From the NCBI RefSeq assembly GCF_026914265.1, contig NC_069135.1:10700887-10764886 (forward strand): a stretch of 64,000 bases of DNA, in the 5' to 3' direction. Source of the DNA: Mya arenaria. Its lineage: Eukaryota > Mollusca > Bivalvia > Myida > Myidae. The first letter of the stretch is position 1; each line of letters opens with the position of its first letter. Under the pieces are notes generated by a model. It searched no databases, had not been told where the DNA came from, and saw only the letters and a list, made by a program, of their open reading frames with translations. Position numbers and translations under genes: made by a program. Shown here piece by piece: positions 19,261-60,176 of the stretch.

Positions 19261-19674
19261 ATGACAGTATATAAATTTAAAATGCAGCCTCTTAACTGTT
19301 TTTGATGATTTAAGGACAAGGTCGATGTATTAATAAGGACATCCAATTTTAGGGCATCTGTAAAGATAATAAGTGTGATCATGTACACATTACATGTCAA
19401 ATATTTAACTTTAGTACAGTGTAACCGGGTCAGCCTTAACTACGTAAAGATCCGCAAAGACGCGTAATGATGCGTAAAGACGCGTAATGATGCGTAAAGA
19501 CACGTAAAGAGACGTAAAGCGGCGTAAAGATGTTTCTAAGTGTGTTTTTTTTTGTAATAATTAGATAAAATGCAACATAAAATGCAACATATTGTATTTA
19601 AAACGTAAATAAAGTGCATCCTTATGCTATCACTTTTAATACTTATCCAATTGTATTCAGGCCATACCACGAAG

Positions 19675-19802
19675 TGTGTGTGTGTGCGTGTGTGCGTGTG
19701 TGCGTGCGTGTGTGCGTGTGTGCGTGCGTGCGTGCGTGTGTGCGTGCGTGTATGCGTGCGTGCGTGCGTGCGCGTGTGCGCGCGCGCGTGTGTGTTTGTG
19801 TG
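19675..19802. repeat. (GT)n/(GCGT)n microsatellite
   Basis: About 130 bp of alternating GTGT and GCGT steps inside the MULE. Cys/Val-rich open frames across it are not genes. Confidence 0.95.
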
Positions 19803-19881
19803 TTGCTGTTTTTGTTGTTTTTATTTGTTGTTCTTATTTGTGCATGACCAAGTGAACAGTCCTATGTCGGAAACACCATTT

Positions 19882-21872
19882 CTACTTTCTAGGCGTAGCC
19901 CTTTCCGCTGCCATTCTCTTGCGCTGATGAGGTTTCTTTCCACCTCCGGGTGTAATTGAAACCCTCAATTGACCGTTGGTCGAAGTAATGGTTTTTGTAC
20001 TCCGACCTTTGTCCCTGTAAAATTTGGCCAGTATCCCTTTTCGTCCTTGTTCTGTTTTCTGACACCAGGCATCAACGGACATTTTGTGGTGCTCGTATGG
20101 CTGAGTTAGTTTATAGTTACCCATACTGACGATTGAATTTTCTACGTCTTTGTACATTGACTGTACAATACGATAGATTATATCAATAAGATCTGCCATA
20201 TCTTCGATTGTATGGTTTGTTCCTATCTTCAGAAGGTTGTTCATTGACTCCGCATTGTTGTTTGTCCAATTTGAATCTATATTCCGGACACGCTTTGGAA
20301 TATGAACGTGGTTTTTGATAAGCGGGACGATCCTGCCGTTTAGATATGGAAGAAAACCAGCTGCTTGTTCACTAACAAGGTTATGGACTGTTTCAAGTCG
20401 GTGATCAACCACAAGCCTTTTTAATTCTGAATCGCTTAAATGGCTGGCTATGTGAGAAAAGAACGCATTAAAGGTACAATCCGACTTCACGTGCAAAAAT
20501 GATGGACCAAGAAAGATTGGGGGTTCTCCCGTATCTGTACGGACCACTGACAGGTTCTTTAAGACAGTTGTTGTCAGGTGCAGTTGGCCTAGGTTGTATG
20601 TTTTATCAACTCCTAGTATGGTTCCTTCATTTTCCTGGCAGCAAAACCGTCCGATATCTTGTAAGATTGTTCGTCCGTGTATGAAAATGACTGATGGTCC
20701 TGAGTGCAAATGAACTACTGAGCGGATAAATGGATGACCTTGGTATACTTTACTTTCAATATTTATCAGGTGATCTGCCAGGTTCTTTAGATAAACGTCT
20801 TCTCCAGCTGTTTTATGTTTTCTGCCTTGGTTGTAGTTCAAGTTTGTATTGTTTATGTTTCTTGGCATTTCATGAACATCTGTTCCTTGGTTCAACTCGT
20901 CGTGAACGTTTTTTGCAGATCGATGTTTGACCATTTATCTAGCTCTTTCCTTTAATGCCGGTTTTGATCGGATGTATGGCTGCTTATTAGCAACTGTTTT
21001 CACCTTCCCATGGTATCCTCTTCCTGGAAGTTTGCCCACTATATTCTACAATCATTAAATCTTCTGATAAATATTGAAAGTCATCAGGCGTGTCTTGTTA
21101 CCCATGAAATCCGACGTTTATATAATTGGTCCGCCTTGAGTTTGCTGTAGCTTCTGTTAATTACTACCAAATCCTGCAACTGCTGGCTGTGGTTCTAGAA
21201 TCTCAAACTTGCGACCAGATTTCTCTATACAGAACAGCCCGTGTCTTTTTGTCGGGTTGATCAGCTTTCCATCAGCAGGAAGAAGGTATGTTGCCGGTGA
21301 TGAACTTTTCTCCCAAGCTCCACAGTCGTCCCAGTATTCTCGCTTTAATCCTGCTTTCCCCTTTCGTTGATTTCTTCATTTCTGATGAAAAAATATATGT
21401 TTTCCTTTACCCCTGTTGAGACCTCTGGCAAGGCACCATCACTTCCTTCTAAAATTCCAAGAAGGACGTGTGTAGGCATGAACTTCCCATGTATGAGAGA
21501 ACCTCGATGAGGACCCCCTACAGACACTCTGCCTGTTTCATTGTCATAGCATGAACTTGTACTCAGAGACGTAGACAATCGGTGGCTGTCTTCTTCTAAT
21601 GAATGATCTTTCGACGCCAATGGTGTGTCCATATTTGCTGAATTTCGTAATGGAGATACGTCTATACATATGGCGTTACTTTCTTCTCTTAGTATATCGT
21701 CACAGTCCATTCCGTTTTGAACTTCATCTTTGAGACAAGAAAATCTATTTTCTAAGTTCACAGGAGCAATTAGTCTGACTTCACTTGATCTACGTTGTCG
21801 TTTTGGATTTTGCCACTCTTCATCATTCATTTCGTTTGGCGTTGACGTTAAAACTTCTGGTATTGGTTCCAA
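19882..21872 (-). pseudogene. Inactivated Mutator-like transposase
   Basis: The minus-strand frame at 21872-21345 has an N-terminal region without recognised domains. After a frameshift it continues (about 21360-21170) with YWDDCGAWEKSSSPATYLL...HGLFCIEKSGRKF, a block typical of this invertebrate transposase group. After more breaks comes a 350-codon frame (20934-19882). The first catalytic Asp lies in ILGVDKTYNLG, followed by the GEPPIFLGPSFLH strand, and the catalytic Glu region in NWTNNNAESMNNLLK. In intact relatives a TD(D/G)E motif and a CxxH follow the GPxxxH block. Here LKRLVVDHRLETVHN jumps almost directly to the region before the Glu, so the second catalytic Asp and the CxxH appear to be deleted. 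It cannot be active. Confidence 0.8.
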
Positions 21873-22179
21873 TTGCCGCTTATGTACTGAGGTAGTCGAT
21901 GTGTTATTTTCAGGCGTGAGTTGAATACCGGTACTTGTGTCAGCCTGAACGCATTACAAATTGTTGTATCTTTACGCGACTTTACGCGTCTTTACGCATC
22001 TTTACGTATTTAAGGTATACCGCAGTGTAACCTTTACCCTTTCCATGCGGATAGCTTTTGTATTCACCCAAAAATTGATTTGTGACGTCTATAATTAATT
22101 TCCTAAAGAAAATGGTTTATCTATCTAAATTTAATTAAATCATATTCAATAAAGTAAAAAAAACTGAACTTATCGAACA

Positions 22180-31100: not shown

Positions 31101-34100
31101 GGATGCAACGGTTGACTGTTATTCAGAAGGCAGTGGGGACTATTGCAACGGATGCAAACTTATAATATGTGTGAATGTTCTCAAAATGTCAAGACTTATA
31201 TCATTGTTGTGTACGCTAAATTACCGAAATACGACGATAATTATCGAAATACACAATACAGTTATAGAATTATGCCTTATATACAATTTTTTGTTCGTTT
31301 TTTAATTCAATATATGTTATAAATACTTTACCAACCTCAATTTTTCGGCTCCGATTTTGACATTTTTCCACTGCGTCCTATCTTATATATTAAGGGTTTC
31401 TACCCGTTTTTTCAACTATTATTTTGCCTGCGTCCTATATATGCTAGCGTCCTATACATGATATAATACGGTAGTAACGGTTTAGGCCATAAAACATTAA
31501 TTTTCACACAGAAATATAATAATCTACGATCTGATTTTTTGTCAGCAATCTTATATCATTGTTTTGTAGATATTTACGCAAAAATTTACTCATTTCAAGA
31601 CAAAACAAAAAAGTTGTATAATAGTAAATCTGTGAGAGTGCAGCTTTAATATAAGTTAGATTTGAATATTACATGTAGTACTCTCTACAACATTTTTTAC
31701 TCATTTTGCAAATGAATGTACGCTGATTTTGCAACCTTCTTGATTTTCTAGCTGATAAATCTGGTTGTATCTATTTATCTTTAATAGTATATTTTGCACC
31801 AATTTAATCAGTTTATGACAAGGATAATGAAACATTGACACGTGAATGCAGTTAGTCAATGTACGTTCAAAGTTTCATACCAAGGAAGTGAAATATCGAG
31901 ATTTTATAGGTAATTCCATCCGTCTATGTTTCTGGCTCAATTTCTGTATGGACATATTTAAAATTACTTTCCATAATGTGTTCTACATACCAAGACGATG
32001 TGTCACGTGCAAGACCTGTGTCCCTTCCTCTGAAGTCAAGGTCACACTTATTCTGAGTTATCGGCCACGCAGCGGCATGAGGGTTGGATTATAAGTACCT
32101 ATCATGTATTTCCGGTACGGATAGAAGAATCGGACCCGAGGGCACGCGCGTAAGCTGGTAACGAGGCTTGCCCGAGGGTCGGATTTTTCGATCCGGACCG
32201 GAAAAACATGATTGCTATTTTTTCTTGCATACCTAAAATTATGAAATTTTGGGAAATTTATGTAGAAAACGTACTTTTCTACATTTCACCAAAATGCGCG
32301 TGCGACGTTGTGTACTGACGTCATAAAGCGCAGTAATTTAAAATCACTATCGACGTCAAATAGTTCCTTTAAAAATCGCGCTTTTACGATTATTAATTTT
32401 CAATTTTAATTAAAAGTATTGAATACTTATAGTTTTGATTCCGCTTTATTGAAATTGCATAATATACTTTTCATAAACCATACAATAAAAGAAATAAAAA
32501 GTGGCACGTTGTTGCACGTGACTCATCTTACATGGGGGGTGTAAGACGAGTTTTTCCAGCACCGGTCACATGACCGGAAACACACGTCCGGTATGCAAGA
32601 ATTTACAATCTGGACTGGAAAAACATGATAGATACTTATTCTTGCATACCTAAAATTATCAATTGGTGGAAAAATTGACATGGAAAACACACTCTTGTTC
32701 ATTTCACTAAAAATCATGTGTGCAACATTGTTTTCTGACGTCATTAAGTGCAGTAATTTTAAATCACTATTGACGTTAAATAGTTCCTCAAAAAATCGCG
32801 TTTTTATGAAATAAATATTTATTTTCAATTTTAATTAAAAGTCTTGCATACGGTACTTATATATTTGTTTGCACTTTATTGAAATGGCATAATATACTTC
32901 TCATAAACCATACAATAAAAAAAATAAGAAGTGGCGCGTTGTTTTGCGTCACTCATCTTACATGGGGATGTAAGTTTTTCCAGCACTGGTCACATGACCG
33001 GAATCACAGTCCGATATGCAAGAAGGTATTGTCCACACTTGAACTTTCTCTGGTATGGACAGATTTTAAATAACTTGCCACATGTGTTAAACATACCAAG
33101 ATTATGTGTCGCATGCAAGACATGTGTCTCTACCTAGAAGGTGGAGGTAGAGAATAAGTGGGCATGTCTGGGTTGAAAATTTTCAGGTATAAATGCCCTT
33201 TTTCAAAGGTCAATGTCACATTCATGAGGATTCGTCACATACTGTGAGAGCTCTTGTTTATGAATATTTCTTTTATTCATCATTTGCACATGTGAATGAT
33301 TGTATATCTTAGCCATTTTGAAACAATGCTTGAAAGGCTTGGAAAAGCCCTGAAAATCGGGAATGGTATATGATATTTTGCCCCACTCTCGGACCAAAGT
33401 TATTTCTTGTGTTTTACAGAAGAGTGATGGCCTTCTCCAGCCAGAGTTTAAGAAGTTTTCCATCGACCCCCAGATCACCTCGTTTGAGATGCTCCAGAAT
33501 CTCCTAGCTAAGGCATTTGACATTCAAAGGTATGGCATTCATTTATTTGGAGCCTGATTGGGTGCCTACATGTGTAGTCATTGCTAGTCTGATTGTTAGA
33601 TATTGACAATTTAATTGTTTCTATTTTTAGCTCTACTGGCCTAAGGCTTATGCGATGGTAATGTGTACGTAGTATGTGTGTCCTTGCGTCTGTAAACAAT
33701 TGCTTGTGAACACGATACAGTCTTCAGTTTTGATTTATCTCGATGAAACTTGTACAGTATTTAGATATCCATTAGAGCTTGGTTCCTTTCGAAAACCAGC
33801 CATATCTGTCCATGCATGCCTAGATTATGGGCCTTGAAAGTATAAAAAATCATTGCGTCTGTAAACAATATTGCTTGTGAACACGATACAGACTTCAGTT
33901 TTAATTGTATCTCGATGAAACTTGTACAGTATTTAGATATCCATTAGAGCTTGGTTCCTTTCGAAAACCAGCCAGATCCTCCCATGTATGCTTAGATAAT
34001 GGGCCTTGAAACTATGAAAAATCAGTGCGTCTATAAACAATTGCTTGTGAACACGATACAGTCTTCAGTTTTGATTTATCTTGATGAAACTTGTACAGTA

Positions 34101-37100
34101 TTTAGATATCCATTAGAGCTTGGTTCCTTTCGAAAACCAGCCAGATCCTCCCATGCATGCCTAGATAATGGGCCTTGATAGTATAAAAAAATCTGTACGT
34201 CTGTTAACAATTGCTTGTGAACATGATACATTCTTCAGTTTTGATTGTATCTTGATGAAACTTGTACAGTATTTAGATATCCATTAAAGCTCGGTTCCTT
34301 TTGCATGCCTAGATTATTGGTCTTAAAAGTATAAAAAAGTGCTATATTTAGCTAAGTCTTTTTTTTAGCCAAGTCTACATGAGTGATGTCTATTTTTAGC
34401 CAAGTTTACATGTAAAGTCACAATTGCTTGTGAATGTTTTTTAAAATTATTCCCTTGGGGTCATTACTGGCCACTTAAATTGGGAAATGTTAAAAACCTT
34501 TTTGTCTGAAACAGCTATGCAGATCCTTGAACAAGGCTTAATTTATTGGTCCACTACCATGGTTGTTAAAATTATGCCCCTTGGGTCAAAACTGGCACTG
34601 CCCCGGGGGTCACAAGTTTCCTAGGGACTTATTTAAGAAATATTTTTAAAATCTTCTTGTTTCAAACCACAAGGCCCATACCTTTGAGATTTGTTGTGGA
34701 GCATCATATGATGACCGTCTAGCAAAACATTTGAAATTATGGGCAAAAGCTGGCCCCACCCCTTTTGACCAACTTTTTTTTATTTTTAAAGCTACAGCAA
34801 TGAAATTTTGACCATGTGTACAGTTTTGCAAACAAGCATCAATGTTGTCCTCGGATTTCCTTGACTTTGACCTATTGACTAACTTTTTAATTTTTAAAGC
34901 TACAGAAATGAAATTTTGACCATGAGTACAGTTTTGAAAGCAAATATGCTTTACCCTCAGATAACCTTTACTTGGCACATATTAAAATAGTTCATGCAAC
35001 TAATCTGCTTACAACACTTCCTGTCCTCAGATGTTGAACGTGCAGCATTTTAAGCTAACCCAAACACAAAAAGTGAACTATATATTTGTTGCCTCATACG
35101 TACATGCTCTGGATTGAAAATGACCACAAGAGCCATGCCAGTAGAGCATAGGCCCTCTTGGGCCTCTTGTTTGAAATATACAATTAAATTTTTTCTATTA
35201 CAACGTCCATCTGTTTGTCACAAATCATGTCCATTTCATTTCTTTTAAACCGCTTGAATGATTTTGAAATAACTTGCATGTTCACCATTATTGAGACGAT
35301 GTCAGTGGCTGCAGAGTGCAGAGCACATGTTATTCACTTACCGGTACAACCAGCTCAGGACAAAGTTACACTTAAAGGTCAAAGGTCACATTTCTATAGA
35401 ATGACTATATTTTGTAACCGCTCAATATCTCTTGAATTGCCTCAAAGATATTAGGTAACTACCAGCTCAGTTCATGGTCAAAATCACACTAAGAGATCAA
35501 AGATCATATGACTATATTTTATTGTTACTACATATCACTTGAACCGCTTCATAATGTTAAATATCTTGTCAGCTCCATATCTCTTGAACCGGTTGAAGGG
35601 TTTTAAAATTAATTACCACAAATGTCCTAAAGAAATAGTGTGCATTTACCTATGTGTCGGAGACATAATGTGCAGCCCATAAGCGAAATCAACATTTCCA
35701 CCTCTCCAGAGGTGTTCACTGCATTGACACCATGTGCAGGGTGCAAGTTTAAGCCATTGACACCATGTGCAGGGTGCAAGTTTAAGCCATTGACACCATG
35801 TGCAGGGTGCAAGTTTAAGCCATTGACACCATGTGGAGGGTGCAAGTTTAAGCCATTGACACCATGTGCAGGGTGCAAGTTTAAGCCATTGACACCATGT
35901 GGAGGGTGCAAGTTTAAGCCAGGCCAATTCAAGATGATATTGAGTGGTAAAAGAACAAATGACTGTATTTTGTGTCTGCTTGTATTGTCCAGCATCGTAC
36001 AGACCACCAGATTTACACAGTATTATAGTTTCCATGACAGTTTCCATGACATCACACAGTAACAATTTTAATGTTACAACAGCAATGTTCAGTAGACAAG
36101 TAAATGCAATAAATATGGAATTTACTGCTTATCTGTCAGTCCCATTTTAAAATCAGCTTTCAATATATATTTAACATTTTCAATCCCTATGTCAATGGAA
36201 CTGATTGAGTCATCTGTTTTGGAATATAGATCTTTATATATTTAGACATTTATAGTATTTTTCTTTTTAGAATTATACATTTGCAGAAATTTGTACTGAA
36301 ATTATTTTATTAGCAATACCAGTATAGAAATTGGAACACGTAGTTGTAATATATAATTATTAATTGTGTTTGCTAGTTAATCAAACAAATTCTTTAATCA
36401 TTTATAACATCAAACTAGGAAACAGTTATCAGTCATCATATCAGATACAGTCAAGTGTGTGGTTTTAATGGTTCTACTAAAATATTGTTATGAAAATAGA
36501 AATAATGAACCGATTGCTCAGAGCTTTGTTTTAAGTTAACAAAGTCATAAACAACATCATCGAGGGTTAACAAAGTCATAAACAACATCATCGAGGGTTA
36601 ACAAAGTCATAAACAACATCATCGAGGGTTAACAAAGTCATAAACAACATCATTGAGGGTTAACAAAGTCATAAACAACATCATCGAGGGTTAACAAAGT
36701 CATAAACAACATCATCGAGGGTTAACAAAGTCATAAACAACATCACTGAGGGTGAATTCTTCTATGATGGGCTCCTATATTTTGATAACAAATCTGCAGC
36801 TAAATAATGTCCATAATCTTGTAAGGAACACTGCAAAGCATAAGTGAATCCGTGAAACTTCAAGAGCAATACAGATTTGAAAGTTAATGATGATGATTTA
36901 TGAATTATTGTTAACCTTAACAAAGTTCTGAACGATGGCCCAATGTGTACTTATTTTCTGCGTCTCGGTCTTATTATATAATGATCATTAAATTTGTACA
37001 CTTGAAATATAGAGTTGTTACTATGGTGACATGAATGAACAAATGATACTATAATACATGTACACATAATTTTATGTTAATGGTTTTTAAGTAATAAACT

Positions 37101-40100
37101 CAAGTGCCTTGACAATTTATTATGATCATAACCAATTATCTCCATGTAGGGTGCCCATCACCTATTATTTAAGTAGTGAGACATAACTTGGTATTGCAAT
37201 TTGCAAGTTAAATGTGTTTATAAAGTTTGTAAATATCAGTGAAATATTTTGTGTCAGTAAGACTAAGTTCTTTATGATGCCATTTCTTCTGGTATAATTA
37301 AAGTACCAGTACCATCATTGTAATCACTGAATAACATTGTACCAAGAAGTCAAAGTCTAACTTGATTGTATACTTGTTGGATAACAACGCTACCTATATA
37401 GGTCTCTCAGGGAGTACATGTAACCCATGACATATATCTTAACTGTCTGAACAGTCATATAAATGATAAGATAATAATAAGGTAAAGTTTTCAACATTGA
37501 GGCCTCATTATCAAGTACATACCAGTACATGTAGTCACATAATATAAATGATGACATGACCTTGTTTTACATGCTTGTATTTCAGTGACTTTACAATCAT
37601 CTAAGTGTCCCAGGACGGATGCTGGTATGCCAATGTTTCATGTAGTTGCTTGTATTTCAGTGACTTCACGATCAGCTAAGGGTCCCAGGACGGATGCTGG
37701 TATGCCAATGTTTCATGTAGTTGCTTGTATTTCAGTGACTTCACGATCAGCTATGGGTCCCAGGATCGATGCTGGTATGCCAATGTTTCATGTAGTTGCT
37801 TGTATTTCAGTGACTTCACGATCAGCTAAGGGTCCCAGGACGGATGCTGGTATGCCAATGTTTCATGTAGTTGCTTGTATTTCAGTGACTTCACGATCAG
37901 CTAAGTGTCCCAGGATCGATGCTGGTATGCCAATGTTTCATGTAGTTGCTTGTATTTCAGTGACTTCACGATCAGCTATGGGTCCCAGGATCGATGCTGG
38001 TATGCCAATGTTTCATGTAGTTGCTTTTATTTCAGTGACTTCACGATCAGCTAAGGGTCCCAGGACGGATGCTGGTATGCCAATGTTTCATGTAGTTGCT
38101 TGTATTTCAGTGACTTCACGATCAGCTATGGGTCCCAGGACGGATGCTGGTATGCCAATGTTTCATGTAGTTGCTTGTATTTCAGTGACTTCACGATCAG
38201 CTATGGGTCCCAGGATCAATGCTGGTATGCCAATGTTTCATGTAGTTGCTTTTATTTCTGTGACTGCCATCATCTATGCATCCCAGGACAGTTGCTTGTA
38301 TGGCCATCTTTCATGTAGATGCTTGTATTTCAGTGACTTCACCATCAGCTATGCATCCCAGGACGGTGGTCAGGATGTGTACCTCAGCATGCTGTCTGAT
38401 TGGGACATGGATGCCGCGTTTCAGAATGCCTCTGACCCATGCCTCAAACTCAAGGTCGACCTTAAACCCTTTGATGATGGTAAGTGACAATCATTGGAAT
38501 TAATTTTATCAGGAATTCTATGTAGAATGGTCGGTGTTATTTGTGTCAGTCTGGTCAAACAAACCATTCTATACTTTGACGTTGAATTTGCAACATAACA
38601 AAACCCTTAACATCACAATGTCAATGTCATGGTCAAGGTCACACATCTAAGATAAGTTTTTTAAACTATGTTATGATGGTTCATTATCCTATATTATGAT
38701 GGTTCATTATCATATATTATGAAAGCATTATTATCCTATGGTAAAGTTTGTTACTTCTTATCTGGTGTGCACTCAGTTACTTCAGCTGTGGTCAACCAAC
38801 TTAAATATAACATAACGAAATGTAAGGCAATGCTATATGTAGTGTACAACAGCAAGATCTGTTGGTCGAAGGTCAAGATCACAAACATAGGTACGTAGTA
38901 TTATTCTTTAATATTGCATGCTTTTTTATTTATTTTAATTTGTTATAGCTCTTAAGGCCATCGGCCGGAAGGGCTTATGCCATGGTGGGGTGCCTTTCCA
39001 GTGTAAACAACTGTTTGTAACGTGATAAAGTCTTCAGCTTTGATTGTATCTTATACAATTTTATTCAGTAGCTAGATATCAATGAGAGCTCGGACCCTTT
39101 TATAAACCTTTTGGAGACAACCTGTAATGAGTGCAGTTGGTATTGAGCTTTTTGTAATTGCGCAGGTCTGCTGTGGGGTGTCCGTATGTGCGTCTGTAAA
39201 CAATTGCTTGTGAATGCGAATAAATCTTCAGTTTTGAATTAATCTTATCAAATTAAAACAGTTGTTAGGTATTTATGAGAGCTCAGCTCCTTTCTTAAAC
39301 CAGCCACATGCATGCCTTGATTATGGCCCTTTGAAATGATGAAAATTGCTATTGTATACAAGTCAAAAATTACAGTCTAAAACAGTCAACCACTTTTCAG
39401 AGAGTGCATTGGTTTTTAGGGTGTTGATAGATTTTCACTAAACTTAAACAGTAATTAGACACCGACATATTGATGGTTCTTTCAAAAACCAGCTGCTGCC
39501 CATATGCGACTAGATGATGGCTTGTAAACTCAATAGAGCTACATTTCTTTTCCTGATCTTCATCAAACAAGCACAGTTGTTAAATATTGATGAGCCCTCG
39601 GTTCCTTTCGAAGACCTGCCAGATCTGCCCATGCATGGCTGGACTGGCCCTTCAAATTGTCAAAATTGTAATATATTTACCTTTGAACACAACAGAACTT
39701 AAACAGTAGTTAAATATTGATTTATTCACAGCTTCTTTCGTAAACCAGCCAAAACCCCTCATGTGTGACTGGGTTATAGCGCCTTGAAATTGATCAAATT
39801 GAAATTGACCAAAACAGCTTGAATTGAAATGACCAAAACAACTACGCCAGTAGTACCTAGGCCCTGATTGGCCTCTTATTTCATGTAACTAACACAGTCA
39901 TGTTTATCACATGTATACAGTTGTGTCTGGCACAGTTATCAGTTCTGTAAGGAAGTGGTTTAAACCAAGGCTTTGATTTCAGAGAAATCAAAGCACTTCT
40001 CTGCCATTCACCTGAGGTTAATAGGGGCACGTTATACTGTGCAGAACTGTTAGGTATGTAATAAGTTGATAACCGATATTGTTGTATAACAACTGTTCTC

Positions 40101-43100
40101 TTCCCCCTGTAGCACTGGAGGATTGGGACATTATAGCGCCAGTAGAGATCCCTCAGTACCGGATGACCTTCCTTGACCGCAGCAACTTCTTTGGCAACAT
40201 CACAGGCACCATCTCAAACAAAATGGGGAAAACTGTCAACCAAGTCCAGAGAGCAATAGGTTAGAACTGTTTTCATTGTCATGAATTTCTGTGTTTCTTC
40301 ATATTTGATGTTAAGTCCAATTAATACATTGGTGACAAAAGAAAATATACATTTGCATTTTTCGAATGATTTTCTTTCCAAAGATGGGCAAATTGATATT
40401 GCATCTTTTGTCTGTGTGTCTGTCCCATGCTTGAGCATTTGTCAGTCCATAAGGTTTTCCTTGTCCAGCTGTTACTTTGTTTTTCATGGAATGATTTGAA
40501 AATTAATTGGCAGATATGTTGGGTACATAAATAGAAGTTTCACATGCAAGACTTATGACCCCACCTCTAACTTCATCCCCCCACCCCCGCCACACACACA
40601 CACAATTGAGGTTTTACCAACATGGTTTCTGGCATATGCTTATAGTTTATGTTTGCTCTTCATGAATGTAGACACATTACTAGTAATTGCATTATCCATG
40701 GAACAAGAATGCAATTTGGTGGCATTTGTGACTTATTGCGACAGCTCTTGTATCTATGGGCTTGACAAATATGAAGCTATCCATATTTATGAATACTAGC
40801 ATCTGTTTTCATGCTAATCATGCGCGATACAATTTTTTAAAAATAATGTATTTTCTCAGAAATAACATGATTTTGTTCATTTAATGTTGTTTGATGAGTA
40901 ATAAGTCATTTACTGTTCGGCTCCAATAGCTTAGTTTTGATAATAAAAAGACATTTATTACCTTTTTATGTTTATTGAATTTAGTGGCACAATTTGTATT
41001 CAAGCTTAACATTCATTAGCTTCTATTAAATACCAAAATTGAAAATGTTGCTAACTTGCTATCATTGATAACATGAGTTGGGCAGATAATAAGTTAATTT
41101 AATAGTCAAAGTATTACTATTTTTTTCCCAGTAAATCACCTTTTTCTTCTGCTTGCTTTCAGGCATGAAAACGGAGGATGAGCAGCAGTACCGGCCTGTG
41201 AAGGCTCCAATGAGCGACATGGAGTTCCGTAACTACATGGACTCAGATGGGCACATGGTTAAACCTGGGGAGTTCCGACTGAGTATCTACCAGGGTGGGG
41301 TGGAAAACTCCCTTCGACGTGTTGTGTGGCGCCATCTACTGAACATCTACCCAGAGTCAATGTCAGGGAGGGAGAGGTTTGCCTACATGAAGAAGAAAGA
41401 GAATGAGTACTTTGAGTTGCGAGATAAATGGAGGCAGCTTTTCAATGAGCGGAAGGTGTCGGAAGATATTATACATGTAGCCACTCTTGTGAAGAAAGAT
41501 GTGCTAAGAACTGATAGAGGTCACAAGTATTATTCTGGGGGTGATGATAGTAAAAATCTGATAGCGTTGTACAATCTCCTAGTCACATATGCCTTGACCC
41601 ACCCAGAGGTGTCATACTGCCAGGGTATGAGTGACATTGCGTCGCCCATCCTTGTAGTGCAGAAGGAGGAGGCACAAGCCTATCTCTGTTTCTGTGGCTT
41701 AATGAAGAGACTGCGATCAAACTTCTTGTATGATGGTGAAGCAATCACCACAAAGCTTCAACACTTGTCCCTGCTAGTGCAATTCTATGACCCAGTGTTT
41801 CATTCCTACATGAAGGAGCATGGCGCAGATGACCTGTTCTTCTGCTACAGGTGGCTGCTTCTTGAACTCAAACGTGAGTTCCCCTTTGAGGATGCCCTTT
41901 ACATGCTGGAGGTGATGTGGAGCACGCTGCCTCCCAATCCCCCGGAGGAAGAACTCACCCTTACAGACTCTGACTACTGTCCCTCTCTTCTTGTGACCGT
42001 ATCTCCCAATTCACCATCATTCGCGGTGAAAACACAGTATTCTCACCTGCTTGCCAAGAGAAGGCTGTCGACTATTGTGAAAGACAACTCTGGGTTGACT
42101 GCCCATTCACCAAAGACTGGAATGGCCTCCCCTAAGACTGCTACATTGATACTAGAAAATGGGCTTGATGATAAACTTCAAACAGTGAAAGAAGAAAGGA
42201 GTGAATCTAAAATGTCATCAAACACTGACAATTTAGACTTTGAACCAAGCATGAGGAAAACTGGAAGTATGGACGGTAAAATTGTTACGAAAAATCATCC
42301 CACTGATGATGAAAACATTCCAGGTATATTGAAACAAAAAGAAGACATCTTATCAAAACCTGATGATGCATTGAACAATGTGAACAGTGAAATAAGAGAC
42401 GACACTTCTGAAAGTATAACTTACAATGAACAAAATGTCATGGACTGTGTCAAACATAATGATTTAAAAAAAGAAAGGAAGGATGAAATGTGTAAATCCG
42501 ATGACAAATCCCGCGACTCTAGTGAAGGAAGCAGTCCAAGTGAGAAATGGAGCAGCTATTACAGTCCCCCCATGTCCCTGCCATCTGACAATGGCCAGCT
42601 GATCAGTAGCTCCGTGAGCTCTGCCTCATATCTCTCCTCCCAATCTGAAGACAGGTTTCCTAGTCTAATATCGGCCAGTGTTGATAGTCGCATTGTTGAC
42701 AGTGAAACTGAGGTGATATGTTCAACTGAGGGAATGATTCTTTCAGCAAATGAGAGCCATTATGTTTCCAGTGAGATTCCAATGGGTCTAAGCAGTAGTC
42801 CAGCAGTAAATAACAATAACACCATTTGTGAGGACGAAAACGACGACCATGCACAATTTCATTTATCCCTTGAGAAGAATGAGTCAGACATTTTGAAAAA
42901 GGCCAGCAGTACCAATGTGCCTCAAATAAAAGGTTCATTTTTCAGCGGCATGAAAAGAATTCTGATGTCACCAAAGCATAGGCCAGGAAAGGCACAGCCT
43001 GTGAATGTGGCACAAAATGTTGATGCAAAGAATAATTCTAACATTAAGAACAATGTGAATGGGCCTTTGCACAGAAGTATGGTAGACTACAGAAACACAG

Positions 43101-43801
43101 ATGACAATGATACAGAGCATACACTGTTTGAGGTTAACCGGCTGATGAGAAGTCACAGTTTGGATTCTGACAGTGGCAATGGTTCATTGGTATCCTCTTT
43201 AAACTCGGCTTCTCTGCACCCAAACAGCACAGGCACATCTGGTCATAATAGTAAAAAGAAGAAAACAAGTCAGCCGAAGGACATCTTATCAACAGAGCAT
43301 CAAAATTACTTTGACAAAAAGTATGCAGAAATTATGTCAGAAATTCCACAGCCAAGTGAACCATCTGGAAATGGTGGAAAGGCCCCATCATTCTGTGAAA
43401 ACCATTTTAGTATGAACAACACCGTCACAACCAGGACTGATGAAACCAAGGAGAAGGACGATATCAGTGTATGTCAGGAGGCTGTTGACATTTGTCAGGA
43501 GGCTGTTGATCAAGAGGAAATTGCTCTGTTTCAGTTCAAGCAGCTGCCTGCACCTGACCAGTTTGGTTATGGTAATCCATTCCTCATGTTTGCCTGTCTC
43601 ACCCTACTTCTACAACACAGGGACGTGATAGTGAACACTGGCATGGAATATGATGAACTGGCCATGTACTTCGACAAACGTGTACGCAAACACCATGTGA
43701 ACAAGGTCTTGCAACAGGCCCGCCAACTCTACACTGAATACATACGCATGCAACAGAAACTACAGCAAGATAAAGATACTTTACCAGAATTTAGTGTCTA
43801 A
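22180..43801 (+). CDS. TBC1D25: TBC1 domain family member 25 (OATL1), Rab GTPase-activating protein, 5 coding exons, 1032 aa
   Basis: In vertebrates this GAP for Rab33B binds Atg8 proteins and regulates autophagosome maturation. Exons: 22180-22236, 33420-33529, 38334-38479, 40113-40259, 41163-43801; all introns are GT/AG and the phases close into one 1033-codon frame. The start MAGFYGIESQREVIRVHVK matches the RxVxRVxVK opening of the family. Residues ~12-100 form a PB1-like N-terminal domain, with QDVYLSMLSDWDMDAAF resembling an acidic OPCA loop. EDWDII at 107-112 (W109/I112) is the LC3-interacting motif known in human OATL1. The TBC domain starts near residue 196 and holds the arginine finger in VKKDVLRTDR (D266, R269) and the glutamine finger in YCQGMSD (Q307). 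It runs through DDLFFCYRWLLLELKREF, is interrupted by a ~530-residue Ser/Asn/Lys-rich linker (~415-942), and resumes with QFGYGNPFLMFACLTLLLQHRD to ~1020. The human protein has 688 aa, the difference being mostly the linker. Confidence 0.93.
23158..23869. repeat. Possible degenerate inverted-repeat element in TBC1D25 intron 1
   Basis: CTTTGATGAGGGCATT at 23158 is complementary to AATACCCTCATCAAAG ending at 23869, with weaker complementarity continuing inward. No clear target duplication was seen. Confidence 0.35.
24139..25592. repeat. Dispersed repeat family copy 1 (TBC1D25 intron 1), with ~169-bp internal tandem repeats
   Basis: It begins TTTTAGTTCTACTGGCCAAA and ends near GCCAGTAGAGCATAGGCCC then GGGCCTCTTG, so CTACTGGC recurs inverted at the two ends. 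Four internal tandem units start with GTAAACAATTG-type sequence at about 24225, 24394, 24563 and 24733 and share AACACGATACAGTCTTCAG and CTTGTACAGTAT. A 23-base poly-C run lies at 24951-24973. Related copies are at 33625-35172 and 38938-39885. Confidence 0.8.
25593..28091. other. Intron 1 sequence with an old dispersed repeat at ~27000-27880
   Basis: No exon was recognised. The part 27000-27880 has a recurring phrase of roughly 130-160 bp (AAGGTCAAGGTCACA..., then TTTCATGAAA(C/T)T) like repeats also glimpsed near 35200-35620 and 38600-38660. Splice phases across intron 1 do not require another exon. Confidence 0.4.
28092..28466. mobile_element. MITE with TTAA ends, 375 bp
   Basis: The left end TTAAAGTGACACTCTTATTC and the right end GAGTAAGAGTGCATCTTTAA are inverted repeats, with TTAA at both outer edges. 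TTAA targets are used by piggyBac and Kolobok-type transposases. It has no coding capacity. Its termini resemble those of the element at 30482-31649. Confidence 0.7.
28467..30481. other. Intron 1 sequence; degenerate tandem repeat ~29735-29890
   Basis: Around 29735-29890 there are three diverged copies of a ~65-bp unit (ACATCCC(G/A)TTT(A/G)CACC..GT.TCTGGACATG). An open frame at 28719-28991 has no recognised similarity and no support as an exon of TBC1D25. Confidence 0.4.
30482..31649. mobile_element. TTAA-type MITE split by a second element
   Basis: The outer ends TTAAAGCTGCTCTCTC (30482) and GAGAGTGCAGCTTTAA (ending 31649) are inverted repeats with TTAA at both edges. The interior inverted complementarity (for example TCGCAGATTTTTATAT region versus AATCTACGATCTGATTTTTT) is interrupted by another element at 30659-31471, so this copy is the older of the two. 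Confidence 0.65.
30659..31471. mobile_element. TA-flanked inverted-repeat element, 813 bp, nested inside the TTAA MITE
   Basis: The left end CCGTATTATATCATGCATAG and the right end CTATACATGATATAATACGG are inverted repeats of about 25 bp, flanked by TA on both sides (30657-30658, 31472-31473) as for Tc1/mariner/pogo-type transposons. Internal GGACGC/GCGTCC motifs recur near both ends. A TGCAACGG-rich tandem stretch lies at about 31030-31155. No intact transposase was seen. Confidence 0.7.
32098..33030. repeat. Two diverged tandem copies of a ~430-500-bp repeat (32098-32600, 32605-33030)
   Basis: Both copies share GGAAAAACATGAT, TTCTTGCATACCTAAAATTAT, (A/C)TGACGTCAT, AATTTAAAATCACTAT, AATATACTT(T/C)TCATAAACCA and TTACATGGGG, and both end near TGCAAGAA. 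Copy 1 has an extra GC-rich start (32115-32200). Both lie in TBC1D25 intron 1, ending about 390 bp before exon 2. No coding content was seen. Confidence 0.75.
33625..35172. repeat. Dispersed repeat family copy 2 (TBC1D25 intron 2)
   Basis: It is the same family and orientation as 24139-25592: start TTTTTAGCTCTACTGGCC, four internal ~165-bp tandem units with AACACGATACAGTCTTCAG, then the shared 3' body (CATATGATG, GAAATTTTGACCATG, CATGCTCTGGATTGAAAATG) and the end GCATAGGCCCTCTTGGGCC. It lacks the poly-C run of copy 1. Confidence 0.8.
35723..35920. repeat. Minisatellite, 33-bp unit, 6 copies
   Basis: The unit starts ATTGACACCATGTGCAGGG and ends TGCAAGTTTAAGCC; two copies have GGAGGG for GCAGGG. 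Because 33 is a multiple of 3, repeated-motif frames stay open on both strands, but they are not genes. Confidence 0.95.
35921..36534. other. Intron 2 sequence, no feature seen
   Basis: AT-rich, no recognised repeat or exon. Confidence 0.4.
36535..36751. repeat. Minisatellite, 31-bp unit, 7 copies
   Basis: Nearly identical units run GTTAACAAAGTCATAAACAA then CATCATCGAGG. One copy has ATTGAGG and the last has ACTGAGG. It lies in TBC1D25 intron 2. Confidence 0.95.
36752..37585. other. Intron 2 sequence, no feature seen
   Basis: AT-rich sequence without recognised elements, leading into the exon-boundary array. Confidence 0.4.
37586..38333 (+). repeat. 75-bp tandem array made from the intron 2 acceptor and start of TBC1D25 exon 3
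   Basis: Ten copies begin at 37586, 37661, 37736, 37811, 37886, 37961, 38036, 38111, 38186 and 38261; the true exon 3 begins 73 bp later at 38334. Each unit holds TATTTCAG, then TGACTTCACGATCAGCTA and GGTCCCAGGA, matching the first 33 bases of exon 3, then GATGCTGGTATGCCAATG and TTTCATGTAGTTGCTT. The first nine copies keep TTCAG; the tenth reads TTCTG. The 75-bp period keeps one frame open for about 300 codons, but that frame is not the exon 3 frame. Confidence 0.95.
38480..38937. other. TBC1D25 intron 3, 5' part
   Basis: Contains a 25-bp direct repeat (ATGATGGTTCATTATC, about 38674-38716) and AAGGTCAAGGTCAC-type repeat scraps. No exon was seen. Confidence 0.35.
38938..39885. repeat. Dispersed repeat family copy 3 (TBC1D25 intron 3), strongly diverged
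   Basis: It starts TTGTTATAGCTCTTAAGGCC, carries GGGCTTATGCCATGG and CGTCTGTAAACAATTGCTTG, and ends GCCAGTAGTACCTAGGCCC then TTGGCCTCTT. These match the ends and internal phrases of the copies in introns 1 and 2, with many substitutions, so this is the oldest copy. Confidence 0.65.
40260..41162. other. TBC1D25 intron 4, no element recognised
   Basis: AT-rich intron with a short (CA)n run near 40590-40603. It ends with the TTTCAG acceptor of the last coding exon. Confidence 0.45.
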
Positions 43802-43817: not shown

Positions 43818-45440
43818 GACTCTTACAGGTAGTACTCATGTACAGACTTGAACATGTAGTACCTGTATACCAACTCTTACATGTAGTACCTGTATACTGA
43901 CTCGAACATGTAGAACCTGTACCTGTATACTGATTCATACATGTAGTACCTGTATACCGACTCTTACATGTAGTACCTGTATACTGACTCTTACATGTAG
44001 TACCTGTATACTGACTCATACATGTAGTGCCTGTATACTGATTCATACATGTAGTACCTGTATACCGACTCTTACATGTAGTACCTGTATACTGACTCTT
44101 ACATGTAGTACCTGTATACTGACTCTTACATGTAGTACCTGTATACTGACTCGAACATGTAGAACCTGTACCTGTATACTGATTCATACATGTAGTACCT
44201 GTATACCGACTCTTACATGTAGTACCTGTATACTGACTCTTACATGTAGTACCTGTATACTGACTCTTACATGTACTACCTGTATACTGACTCATACATG
44301 TAGTGCCTGTATACTGACTCATACATGTAGTACTTGTACCTGTATGCTGACTCGTACATGTAGTACCTGTATGCTGACTCGTACATGTAGTACCTGTACC
44401 TGTATGCTTACTCATACATGTAGTACCTGTATGCTGACTCGTACATGTAGTACCTGTATGCTTACTCATACATGTAGTACCTGTACCTGTATGCTTACTC
44501 ATACATGTAGTACCTGTATGCTGACTCGTACATGTAGTACCTGTATGCTGACTCGTACATGTAGTACCTGTACCTGTATGCTTACTCATACATGTAGTAC
44601 CTGTATGCTGACTCGTACATGTAGTACCTGTATGCTTACTCATACATGAGGAACCTGTATGCTTACTCATACATACTGTACCTGTACCTGTATGCTTACT
44701 CATGCATGTAGTACCTGTATGCTGACTCGTACATGTAGTACCTGTACCTGTATGCTTACTCATACATGTAGTAGCTGTATGCTGACTCGTACATGTAGTA
44801 CCTGTATGCTGACTCGTACATGTAGTACCTGTACCTGTATGCTTACTCATACATGTAGTACCTGTATGCTGACTCGTACATGTAGTACCTGTATGCTGAC
44901 TCGTACATGTAGTACCTGTACCTGTATGCTTATTCATACATGTAGTACCTGTATGCTGACTCGTACATGTAGTACCTGTATGCTTACTCATACATGTAGT
45001 ACCTGTATGCTTACTCATACATGCTGTACCTGTACCTGTATGCTTACTCATACATGTAGTACCTGTATGCTTACTCATACATGCTGTACCTGTACCTGTA
45101 TGCTGACTCGTACATGTAGTACCTGTACCTGTATGCTTACTCATACATGTAGTACCTGTATGCTGACTCGTACATGTAGTACCTGTATGCTGACTCGTAC
45201 ATGTAGTACCTGTACCTGTATGCTTACTCATACATGTAGTACCTGTATGCTGACTCGTACATGTAGTACCTGTATGCTGACTCGTACATGTAGTACCTGT
45301 ATGCTTACTCATACATGTAGTGCCTGTACCTGTATGCTGTACCTGTACCTGTACACTGACTCCTACATGTAGTGCTGGTACTCATTCACATAGAACCTGT
45401 ATACTGGTTGGTTAAAACAGTACCTGTATACTGACTTGTA
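43818..45440. repeat. Minisatellite in the presumed TBC1D25 3' UTR, 27/33-bp units
   Basis: It begins within about 20 bp of the stop codon. Units read CTGACTCGTACATGTAGTAC then CTGTATG (27 bp), some with an extra CCTGTA (33 bp). Early copies have ...CTGTATAC and TCTTACATG; later ones alternate GCTGACTCGTACATG and GCTTACTCATACATG. All unit lengths are multiples of 3, so Thr/Cys/Ser-rich frames stay open for up to 504 codons on the minus strand and 237 on the plus. None has start context or homology, so they are not called genes. Confidence 0.95.
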
Positions 45441-49419: not shown

Positions 49420-50730
49420 AGCATGATATATAGAACCAGTGGTCAGCAGCATGATATATATAGAACCAATGGTCAGCAGCATGATATATAGAACCAGCAG
49501 TCAGCATCATGATATTTAGAACCAGTGGTCAGCAACATGATATATATAGAACCAGCAGTCAGCATCATGATATATAGAACCAGTGGTCAGGAGCATGATA
49601 TATAGAACCAGCAGTCAGCATCATGATATATAGAACCAGTGGTCAGCAGCATGATATATAGAACCAGTGGTCAGCAGCATGATATATAGAACCAATGGTC
49701 AGCAGCATGATATATAGAACCAGTGGTCAGCAGCATGATATGTATATATAACCAGCAGTCAGCAGCATGATATATAGAACCAATGGTCAGCAGCATGATA
49801 TATAGAACCAATGGTCAGCAGCATGATATATAGAACCAATGGTCAGCAGCATGATATATAGAACCAATGGTCAGCAGCATGATATATAGAACCAATGGTC
49901 AGCAGCATGATATATAGAACCAGTGGTCAGCAGCATGATATATATAGAACCAATGGTCAGCAGCATGATATATAGAACCAATGGTCAGCAGCATGATATA
50001 TAGAACCAGTGGTCAGCAGCATGATATATATAGAACCAATGGTCAGCAGCATGATATATAGAACCAATGGTCAGCAGCATGATATATAGAACCAATGGTC
50101 AGCAGCATGATATATAGAACCAGTGGTCAGTAGCATGATATATAGAACCAGTGGTCAGCAGCATGATATATATAGAACCAATGGTCAGCAGCATGATATA
50201 TAGAACCAATGGTCAGCAGCATGATATATAGAACCAGTGGTCAGTAGCATGATATATAGAACCAGTGGTCAGCAGCATGATATATATAGAACCAATGGTC
50301 AGCAGCATGATATATAGAACCAATGGTCAGCAGCATGATATATGAAACCAGTGGTCAGCAGCATGATATATAGAACCAATGGTCAGCAGCATGATATATA
50401 GAACCAATGGTCAGCAGCATGATATATAGAACCAGTGGTCAGCAGCATGATATATATAGAACCAATGGTCAGCAGCATGATATATAGAACCAATGGTCAG
50501 CAGCATGATATATGAAACCAGTGGTCAGCAGCATGATATATAGAACCAATGGTCAGCAGCATGACATATAGAACCAGTATTCAGCAGCATGATATATAGA
50601 ACCAGTGGTCAGCAGCATGCTATATAGAGCCAGTGGTCAGCAGCATGATATATAAAACCAATGGTCAGTAGCATGATATATAGAACCAATGGTCAGCAGT
50701 ATGATATATAGAACCAGTAATCAGTAGCAT
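49420..50730. repeat. Minisatellite, 28-bp unit, about 46 copies
   Basis: Units read AGCATGATATATAGAACCA then ATGGTCAGC or GTGGTCAGC. Some are 30 bp, with TATATATAG in place of TATATAG. Early copies contain CAGCAGTCAGCATC. The variant types recur in blocks (for example the order 28-28-30 bp several times), indicating block-wise amplification. Confidence 0.95.
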
Positions 50731-57237: not shown

Positions 57238-60176
57238 ATCCTATATTACCACACTACTGTTGAACAAACAGTCTAAAGTAAAACCATTTTCATGTATTAC
57301 CAGGTAGTGGACTATGTGGAGTGTTTTCTGGGCCCGGACATCATGGCCATGCACACGATGCTCATCAACAAACCTCCAGATCAAGGTATGTTGTCTTATA
57401 GTTGAGATAACGTTTAGTAGTATTTAAATTATTATTTATGATTAAATTTACATCAGCAAAACCAAATCGTAAACATTTTTTGAAGAAGTGTACATAAGAT
57501 AAAGTTTTAAACTGTATTGTTTTGAAAATAAAACAATGATATAAGCACTTGCAAGTCAAATGAGAACAAAAAAGAATTTATTGTTACACAAACTGAGTTT
57601 ATTTACTTTAAAGGCAAATCAGATAAGAGACTATGACATGAACATTACAGTCTGAATTCAACTGGATGTTGTCGCTCTCTTGTTTTTATTTGTTTGTTAT
57701 CATGTTAATTTATCTATGCTGTTGGGCATGCTATGATGCTTTTGTTTGATGACCATGTTAAAGTTGACTGATATGCATGTAATTTTTCTATAATGAAATA
57801 ATATTCAATAGTGGTGTATATGCTTGTATCTTATTAAATGTTCTGTTCTGTTCTTAATGTTTGTTTGGATAATCCCATATGGAAAAACAGTATTTGAACT
57901 AGAAGTTGATAGCTGTGCCGTTTGCTCTTATTTAATTAATTCAAGTAAGAATGTATTTACAGAATCATACTTGAAGATTAATAAGAATATTAATTTCCCT
58001 GTCTTATGCAGCTGCTGTATTAATGCTTATTTGGTATTTAGGAAGATGTTTGTCTGTGGGTTAAATATAGGTTTATATAATACATGATGATGAGGATTGA
58101 TTTTGACCGTGAGAGCTGGCTACACTTACAAACTTATCAGAGTTAAAAATATCAAATTGATATTTTAGGGTTTGAAACAATCAATTATCATTTTTATTTG
58201 CTGATAAGTCTCTATAAACCACTAAAACAAATACTTGATATAAAGGGAAATAATTCTATATAACTGATAATAGTTGTGATTTATTGATGATAAGATATAT
58301 TTATATATTTATCATTGCTTGCTCCTTGTTTAATTTCTATAATAATACACATTGATTCTGCATCTGTAAACACTTGAATTATGATTGAATCCCTTCAGTT
58401 AACTAAATATGAAGTGGATTTGAGTTTCATCAGATCAGTGATTTTAATTAAATTGAAAGTGTTGGTGAACATGTACATGTGGTATCAGCTACTATAATAC
58501 AGATTTGTAAACATTGGCAAAATTTGGAAATAAAGTACTACTTTGAAGCTGACAATTGGTCTTTTGCAAGCATAAGAGATGAGTAAACAATGAGCTGACA
58601 CCATAGGCTGATGAAGCCGGAAGTGAGAAGAGGAATATAGTTAAATGGTTCTTTATTATTACTGCAGGCAAGCTGTCATCACGGCATCCAATGCACCAGG
58701 ACCTGTACTACTTCCCATTCCGGCCGGTGGACCGTATTGTGTGTGCATGGACAGCCATGGAGAAGGTGAACCGTGACAATGGCTGTCTTGTAGTCCTGCC
58801 CGGCACCCACAAGGGGGAGCTACTTCAGCACGACTACCCAGAGTGGGAGGTAGGAAAAAATAAGGCATTGTTTAAGAGGTTTGCTGGTCGATACAATGTT
58901 TCAATATAGTTGCCATCAAAAAAATATAACCACTACCAGATATTTGTGAAACATTTCAGATGGATGATTAAGAGATTATAAGAAAGTTGACTGTTGTTTG
59001 CTGTTTTTGCATTTTGAATAGAAACACATATTTTTGTGTCTTTATAGCATCAAGAATTACATTACCCAGTTAGGTTAAATAGTTAATATAGATAAAAACC
59101 TATCTGACTGTACTTAATCTATGCACATTATATATAGGGAGGTGTGAATAAAATGTACCATGGTGTGCGTGACTACAAGCAGGACCATCCGAGGATCCAC
59201 CTGGAGATGGAGGCCGGCGACACCGTGTTCTTCCACCCAATCCTCATACATGGATCTGGAGCCAACCGCACAAACGGCTTCAGGAAGGTAAGGTTAGGTT
59301 TTGTAGCCTGTGATGCAAAGACATGACAACATGGTACGCTTTTCAACTTACTAGTTATAAAAAACACTGTTGTGAATAATTGAGCATGTATATGTTGTTG
59401 ATTTGAATAATTATACTTAAAATTTCTTTTGGCAAATCTTACATGTTCCTTACATTTGCTGAATTCTTAGAATAGTACTACAAAGAATCTTTCTGAACAA
59501 GATGTGCTTGACCATTCCCCATTGGCCAATATACATGTGTACCTGCAGGCTATCTCGTGCCACTACTCGACGGGCCAGTGCCACTTTGTGGACCTGAAGG
59601 GAACCGTACAGGAGAAGATCGAGGATGAGGTGCTGGAGTTGGCAGAGAAAAAAACAGGCATTCCTAAAACACAGATCAAGTATGAGGTAGGTACCTGTAC
59701 ATAATGTTAGTGTTTGCGCCAAGACAAGTGTACAAGCCCCAATTTCTCGAAGAAGCTTAATATATTTTGTTTCAATTAGCTAAATTACTTACTGTACGAA
59801 GATGATTTTCATGAAGATAATTTCCTTTATAATTCTAAAAAAATTCTGAAAATGTTAAATAATACCAAACAAAAAAGTGAGCTTAGCTTGATTACATTAG
59901 TGGGGACTTAAGATTCTTGGAGAAATTGGAGCCATTTATAATGTTTATAACTTTGTTCTGTTTGGTCTAATACAGATATTTCTTTGTTGTGTTCAGTAGC
60001 CAATACTTATTCTTTGAAGCATGAATTTCCAATGTGTGCATTGATATCCTAGACAAGAAGTTTTCTACATGTATTTAGGAACCTATGTGTTTGTTTTCCA
60101 GGACATCTGGAAGTTCCGTTCTCGGATTGTGAAGGGGACCAGGTCTTGGGACGAAATGGAGGCTAATAGCAACTAA
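52566..60176 (+). CDS. PHYH: Phytanoyl-CoA 2-hydroxylase, peroxisomal, 8 exons, 335 aa
   Basis: This Fe(II)/2-oxoglutarate dioxygenase hydroxylates phytanoyl-CoA at C2, the first step of peroxisomal alpha-oxidation. Exons: 52566-52616, 55856-56016, 56389-56557, 57304-57385, 58668-58849, 59138-59287, 59549-59686, 60102-60176; phases close exactly to 336 codons. Exon 1 gives [23 protein letters not shown] fits the PTS2 peroxisome signal (R-L-x5-H-[L/V-like]) and lies where the human PTS2 does. Conserved blocks include [19 protein letters not shown] and [20 protein letters not shown]. Iron ligands are H164 and D166 in [14 protein letters not shown] and H253 in [12 protein letters not shown]264 in GFRK binds 2-oxoglutarate. 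These equal human H175, D177, H264 and R275, all shifted by 11. The exon 1 donor and exon 2 acceptor are the least certain: donor GTAGCA at 52603 with acceptor CCAG|TC in exon 2 would also keep the frame. Confidence 0.95.
52673..53500. mobile_element. TA-flanked inverted-repeat element, 828 bp, in PHYH intron 1
   Basis: The left end CTGGGCAGTTGCCTAATTCC and the right end GAAATTAGGCAACTGCCCAG are inverted repeats of about 23 bp with one mismatch, flanked by TA at 52671-52672 and 53501-53502, as in Tc1/mariner-type insertions. No transposase frame was seen, so it is probably non-autonomous. Confidence 0.85.
53511..53599. repeat. Long palindrome, ~37-bp arms, PHYH intron 1
   Basis: ATTTATGTCATTTTGCCAAA at 53511 continues through ACATGTTCAGATATC and pairs with GATATCTGAACATGTTTTTT to 53599, with one A/T-run length difference and a 14-base loop. 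It begins 9 bp after the TA flank of the preceding element. Confidence 0.85.
53600..54100. other. PHYH intron 1, no feature recognised
   Basis: No exon or repeat was identified. Confidence 0.35.
54112..55047. repeat. Element bounded by inverted GGTCCGTAAT motifs, ending in poly-C
   Basis: GTGGACCATTACGGACCAGA at about 54122 is the complement of TCTGGTCCGTAATGTC near 54956-55000. The right side holds six or more TGGTCCGTA(A/G)(T/G)GT copies (54911-55020), then a run of 25 C (55023-55047). It is probably a decayed transposon with subterminal repeats. No frame was seen. Confidence 0.5.
55670..55870. repeat. Degenerate repeats overlapping the PHYH exon 2 acceptor
   Basis: The phrase (G)ACCTTAACCAGCCATGTAGCA recurs with changes at about 55675, 55730, 55745-55765 and 55838-55858. 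Two copies carry AGCCATGTAGCA; the last supplies the presumed acceptor TGTAG|CATCCTGAG. Confidence 0.5.
57188..57238. repeat. (TTG)n microsatellite, PHYH intron 3
   Basis: A T/G run followed by about ten TTG/GTT triplets. Confidence 0.9.
57386..58667. other. PHYH intron 4, no feature seen
   Basis: AT-rich intron; splice phases on both sides match without any further exon. Confidence 0.5.
59736..59933. mobile_element. MITE, ~198 bp, in PHYH intron 7
   Basis: The left end GCCCCAATTTCTCGAAGAAG is complementary, with mismatches, to the right end CTTGGAGAAATTGGAGCC. It shares internal TTTCAATTAGC and TCATGAAGATAATTTCCT with the sequence at 19090-19230. No coding capacity. Confidence 0.6.

Follow-up and report, generated by a model that had tools for sequence, protein, structure and literature searches.

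Does a tandem array built from copies of an intron's last stretch and the first bases of the following exon supply its host gene with additional microexons, does it impair expression through premature stop codons, or is it removed with the intron in which it lies? This question is raised by a locus of the bivalve Mya arenaria, found in a stretch of 64,000 nucleotides (positions 10,700,887 to 10,764,886 of NC_069135.1; hereafter, the window), where a minisatellite of this kind precedes and enters exon 3 of a gene for a TBC-domain protein. All positions given below refer to the window.

A tandem array across the border of intron 2 and exon 3

At the end of intron 2, TRF identified on the + strand an array with a 75-bp period (10.6 copies, 93% matches, score 1324) that extends 33 nt into exon 3, with units starting at 37586 + 75n (Table 1). 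The array itself is far beyond chance. Its nine intact units (n = 0-8) all have TTTCAG directly 5' of TGAC, and all nine present CTG/GTATGC exactly 39 nt past the unit start. The unit consensus is identical to the 14 bases upstream of exon 3, one of which differs in unit 7, and matches the first 33 bases of the exon at 90.9%; this likeness supports the origin from an exon boundary proposed in a preliminary description of this DNA, although the units carry the exon's first 33 bases inexactly and not verbatim as described there. The repeated unit therefore contains a splice site and part of an exon. The same description had counted ten units with an acceptor: nine of them do have TTTCAG, while the tenth, of 73 nt, is preceded by the TTTCTG in which unit 9 ends and consequently lacks the AG, and it has no donor at +39 either. 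Unit 1 differs from units 2-9 in its 25 upstream nucleotides, which contain a TTTAC branch-like motif, and no other AG occurs within 40 nt upstream of its acceptor.

Table 1. Positions of the array, its units and the exons of the host gene in the window.
Feature	Positions	Strand	Details	Basis
Exon 2	33420..33529	+	TBC1D25-like gene, 110 nt; donor AAG/GTATGG (CAAAG/GTATGG at 33529)	splice sites, frame; identical in second copy
Whole array	37572..38366	+	33 nt into exon 3	TRF
Unit 1	37586..37660	+	TAA; microexon 37586-37624, donor at 37625, acceptor 5'	sequence
Unit 2	37661..37735	+	TAA	sequence
Unit 3	37736..37810	+	open	sequence
Unit 4	37811..37885	+	TAA	sequence
Unit 5	37886..37960	+	TAA	sequence
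Unit 6	37961..38035	+	open	sequence
Unit 7	38036..38110	+	TAA	sequence
Unit 8	38111..38185	+	open	sequence
Unit 9	38186..38260	+	open; 3' end TTTCTG	sequence
Unit 10	38261..38333	+	decayed, 73-nt; own end TTTCAG = exon 3 acceptor	sequence; identical in second locus copy
Exon 3	38334..38479	+	146 nt; donor ATG/GTAAGT	two own-genome matches, both 100%
Exon 4	40113..40259	+	147 nt	frame; identical in second copy
Exon 5	41163..43801	+	TBC domain and stop codon	PF00566, E = 1.4e-34

An insert of 39 nt between exons 2 and 3 keeps the reading frame and adds 13 residues. This had been noted before, as had the 39-nt spacing of GTATGC in each of the first nine units and the sorting of these units by their reading frame, and our analysis agrees on all three points: units 3, 6, 8 and 9 are open, and a TAA is present in the other five of the nine (units 1, 2, 4, 5 and 7). 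When a unit start is joined to exon 2 without use of the unit's own donor, a stop codon results in 10/10 cases. The 36 nt between neighbouring cassettes are probably too short for an intron, so that only non-adjacent cassettes could combine, which gives 88 non-empty sets from the nine units and 11 from the four open ones.

Exons 2-5 of the host gene form a reading frame of 1013 residues to the stop codon; a narrow search yielded no candidate for exon 1. The TBC domain is clear (Table 1), whereas the PB1 profile match is weak (E = 0.00012, 22.4 bits) and lies below the curated cut-off of 23.6. The PB1-like label that the preliminary description gave to the N-terminus is accordingly weak. Our designation of the gene as TBC1D25-like rests on the TBC domain, on the weak PB1-like match and on a presumed likeness to human TBC1D25. 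The array also lies within an open reading frame of 310 codons (37555-38487) that enters the frame of exon 3; we rejected it as a coding extension because it reads the units in a frame other than the one that a splice junction with exon 2 would set. Moreover, an array whose period is a multiple of three easily stays open.

The window is rich in repeats: eight arrays with a period of 20 or more occupy 10.8% of it. When these arrays were placed at random, 61% of 20000 trials had at least one of them lying across any of 16 exon borders; this test ignores selection against such placement, and its exon borders and list of eight arrays were set by hand. Under a crude filter, the + strand of the 75-bp array holds 119 acceptor-donor pairs, as against 0 to 14 per strand in the seven others, a contrast that counts against a wholly ordinary array. 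The donor-like site was compared with 3346 noncoding 75-nt stretches taken from the + strand of the window's introns and intergenic DNA, overlapping in steps of 7. Of these, 749 (22.4%) contain at 30-66 nt a donor whose U1 pairing is no weaker, and in 287 (8.6%) such a donor gives a length that is a multiple of three. Since this site was copied along with the unit, its 39-nt distance in every unit counts as one fact, not nine.

Other minisatellites are located at 8768-10359 (44 bp), 35722-35921 (33 bp), 36535-36753 (31 bp) and 49420-50730 (28 bp). A further one, with a 27-bp period and about 52 copies (43852-45372), begins ~50 nt beyond the TBC gene's stop codon and probably belongs to the 3' untranslated region; its TRF description differs in the second copy of the locus described below. 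Elsewhere in the window, Pfam identified a reverse transcriptase ORF (304-1650), a papain-family protease piece on the - strand (14041-14415) and a phytanoyl-CoA dioxygenase piece (58607-58906).

Two versions of the locus in one assembly

We searched the species' own genome (1.216 Gb, 18 contigs) with the array unit and identified at least 16 matches, in two places only, both on contig 14; the second locus lies about 593 kb before that of the window. A query with exon 3 returned two matches at the same two loci, each 100% identical. The second array consists of five intact units, as compared with nine in the window, and ends in the same decayed unit, so that unit number varies between the two locus copies of one assembly, be they alleles or paralogues. 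The five intact units correspond to window units 1, 2, 6, 7 and 9, with 0, 0, 0, 0 and 1 differences respectively; TAA is present in three of them, and the AG and the GT are intact in all five.

Not only the decayed unit but also exons 2, 3 and 4 are identical between the loci. The stretch covering exon 5 is 98.6% identical, and identity in three flanks close to the array amounts to 97.8-98.6%. Both copies retain an intact frame of 1013 aa from exon 2 to exon 5; 26 of the codon differences between them are synonymous and 8 nonsynonymous. In the acceptor tract of exon 4 (40098-40112), two bases differ between the copies. On a larger scale, the best match chain, which insertions interrupt, accounts for 61078 of the 87806 bases compared, with a weighted identity of 95.9%. 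Colinearity extends from window position ~7000 to ~77865, the end of the compared stretch, in blocks mostly 95-98.5% identical; to the left of position 7000 the match is poor, with 80-91% identity in scattered pieces. About 2.6 kb (19392-21965) are absent from the match chain to the second copy and perhaps represent a mobile element insertion; the 350-residue ORF inside this segment (19882-20934) has no Pfam match. Other repeats also differ in copy number between the window and the second locus: 7.1 against 12.1 copies in the 31-bp array, 36.1 against 46.1 plus 5.2 in the 44-bp array, and 46.2 against 44.2 in the 28-bp array; the 172-bp array has 3.6 copies at both loci.

Judged from these alignments, the second locus looks either like the other haplotype, placed next to the first in the assembly, or like the product of a large tandem duplication of recent date. 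In both cases, unit number differs while the frame is intact in both copies. It is important to consider that the unit number, or the second copy as a whole, might be an artefact of repeat assembly or of two haplotypes placed side by side, and the long colinearity of near-identical blocks with insertion differences is indeed what two haplotypes would give. In both copies, however, the array has the same units at its edges and its variants follow the same order, which argues that the array itself is not an artefact, and we regard an explanation by assembly effects as very improbable.

Splice signals, probable exchange between units and the likely fate of the array

The donor is the element in which the units compare least well with real exons. 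Its pairing with U1 reaches -4.2 kcal/mol, weaker than each of eight real donors (-5.5 to -10.0), which were hand-picked from the TBC1D25-like gene and its phytanoyl-CoA dioxygenase-like neighbour and scored with a duplex program that does not enforce the splice register. When matches are simply counted, the array donor scores 6 and ties with two of the eight. Among seven GT sites read in unit 8, GTATGC is the best by U1 energy; CAT/GTAGTT, at 56 nt, exceeds it in match count (6.5) but reaches only -1.2 kcal/mol and is out of phase. The array has the make-up of a duplicated intron end and exon start that includes a donor, albeit a weak one. The acceptors present a different picture: their pyrimidine fraction is 0.65-0.71 in units 2-9 and 0.71 in unit 1, as against 0.59 in exon 3, so that acceptor strength gives no reason for skipping the units. 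Units 2-9 share with exon 3 a TTCAT branch-like motif at -21, and unit 1 has its TTTAC at -17. On these measures, the unit acceptors could compete with that of exon 3, and the donor would be the weak point. We also considered RNA structure that hides the splice sites and rejected it, as the array with exon 3 folds no better than its shuffles (z = +1.77; 20/20 shuffles at least as stable). In addition, Rfam returned no match in the window at the gathering score.

These signals bear directly on the proposal that the open units 3, 6, 8 and 9 enter a real share of transcripts, each adding 13 residues to the N-terminal PB1-like region. Such use would be consistent with in-phase 39-nt cassettes whose AG and GT are intact in 9/9 units here and 5/5 in the second copy, with acceptors comparable to that of exon 3 and with the 11 non-adjacent open combinations. 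The weak donor speaks against it, and so do the TAA codons (5/9 units here, 3/5 in the second copy), since open units are not favoured over TAA-bearing ones. Nor are the splice signals preserved beyond expectation: 1 of the 14 signal columns, chosen by us, is variable, compared with 10 of all 75 (hypergeometric P = 0.40), so there is no excess conservation in these columns. We therefore consider this kind of use to be decidedly improbable, and the earlier suggestion that the array yields variable isoforms or dampens expression is not borne out by the donors, which have the weakest U1 pairing of those compared, by the signal columns or by the mixture of open and closed units.

A second test of column variability gave a less uniform result. 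Exon-derived columns are more variable than the rest (8/33 vs 2/42, Fisher p = 0.018, with the split made post hoc), a pattern that might reflect constraint on the intronic signals; the difference depends on unit 1, however, without which p = 0.23. In other respects, the units vary as expected from exchange among them. First, all four variant combinations of columns 18 (the TAT/TAA base) and 30 are present. Second, units 1 and 10, at the edges of the array, are the most diverged from the consensus. The 27-nt spacer best resembles a diverged acceptor region (local score 20 vs a shuffle mean of 12.2, reached by 0.8% of shuffles), and that of unit 10 does so more weakly (5.1% of shuffles); with six comparisons made, this is a hint that the spacer may be a diverged copy of the acceptor region.

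Exchange among units is also relevant to the view that the array acts as a poison element, in which TAA-bearing units, as well as junctions to a unit whose own donor is not used, would lead to nonsense-mediated decay and expression would fall as unit number rises. TAA in 5/9 units and the stop codon in 10/10 donor-less junctions agree with this view, as does the TAA in unit 1, which has the best upstream tract and no upstream AG. Yet the frame is intact in both copies of the gene, and TAA is one of two variants that exchange has mixed across the units; we judge this explanation unlikely. A related idea is that of a copy-number rheostat, in which the TAT/TAA single-base toggle, spread by exchange, would set the amounts of full-length, lengthened and truncated TBC1D25-like protein for each locus version. 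We give it a small probability as well, a shade below that of decay. Seen from the sequence, regulated or poison use of units would be possible, though unlikely.

The reading that we favour, and consider likely, is that of a near-neutral minisatellite derived from an intron/exon border, which would normally be removed with intron 2 and contribute at most low-level microexon inclusion. We infer that the last part of intron 2, together with approximately 33 bases from the beginning of exon 3, underwent tandem duplication and then expanded into a minisatellite, in which unequal exchange or slippage adds and removes units. Apart from the real exon start, the whole array sits within intron 2. Because the microexons are short (39 nt) and have weak donors, 33530-38333 would usually be spliced out as one intron, with the acceptor at 38334. 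As the unit acceptors look competent, occasional inclusion of a unit, with either 13 additional residues in frame or a TAA, is to be expected as low-level noise, the amount of which may depend on unit number.

Significance and comparison with known systems

The difference between 9 and 5 intact units, in flanking sequence that is otherwise much alike, constitutes a natural experiment on the choice of the spliceosome among near-identical acceptors, and the two locus versions also bear on whether exon-border minisatellites can seed new exons. If the units are used, the locus would represent exon birth by minisatellite growth; if they are not, it would demonstrate the tolerance of splicing to nine decoys. 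Titles and abstract openings among the matches listed contained no report of this gene's array, which does not prove the absence of one.

The closest likenesses are found in human CBS and in a potato gene. According to PMC2630376, the 31-bp VNTR of CBS, c.1444_1467+7(16_21), has 16-21 copies of a unit that is always 31 bp, with substitutions between units. As in the clam, the number is variable and the unit crosses an exon/intron border (the name implies 24 exonic and 7 intronic bases), which makes it a precedent for the array. It is located, however, at the exon end, on the donor side, and has a 31-bp unit, while the clam array is at the exon start; each intact clam unit also has its own donor-like site and is a potential cassette. 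A further VNTR across a splice junction, reported to affect alternative splicing, has the same sort of placement.

The same paper describes CBS 844ins68, in which the intron 7/exon 8 junction is duplicated and the distal site is strongly favoured (PMC2630376); the sites are called donors there, and by their position we read them as acceptors. Preference for the distal site is the outcome that we propose for the clam and provides a precedent for splicing to exon 3 as the rule, but 844ins68 is a single duplication and not an array.

Novel introns are the subject of PMC2891723 in Drosophila, and the potato RdRp gene, as presented in PMC4974935, offers the nearest parallel for the origin of a new exon. 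There, a tandem duplicate made up of an intron's 3' portion and the 5' portion of the exon that follows is spliced, with 106 junction reads; the branch site, the tract and the AG were inherited, and a cryptic donor was activated (PMC4974935). Potato has one duplicate with spliced junctions shown, whereas the clam locus has nine intact copies. The potato gene demonstrates that a duplicate of this sort can turn into a genuine intron and exon.
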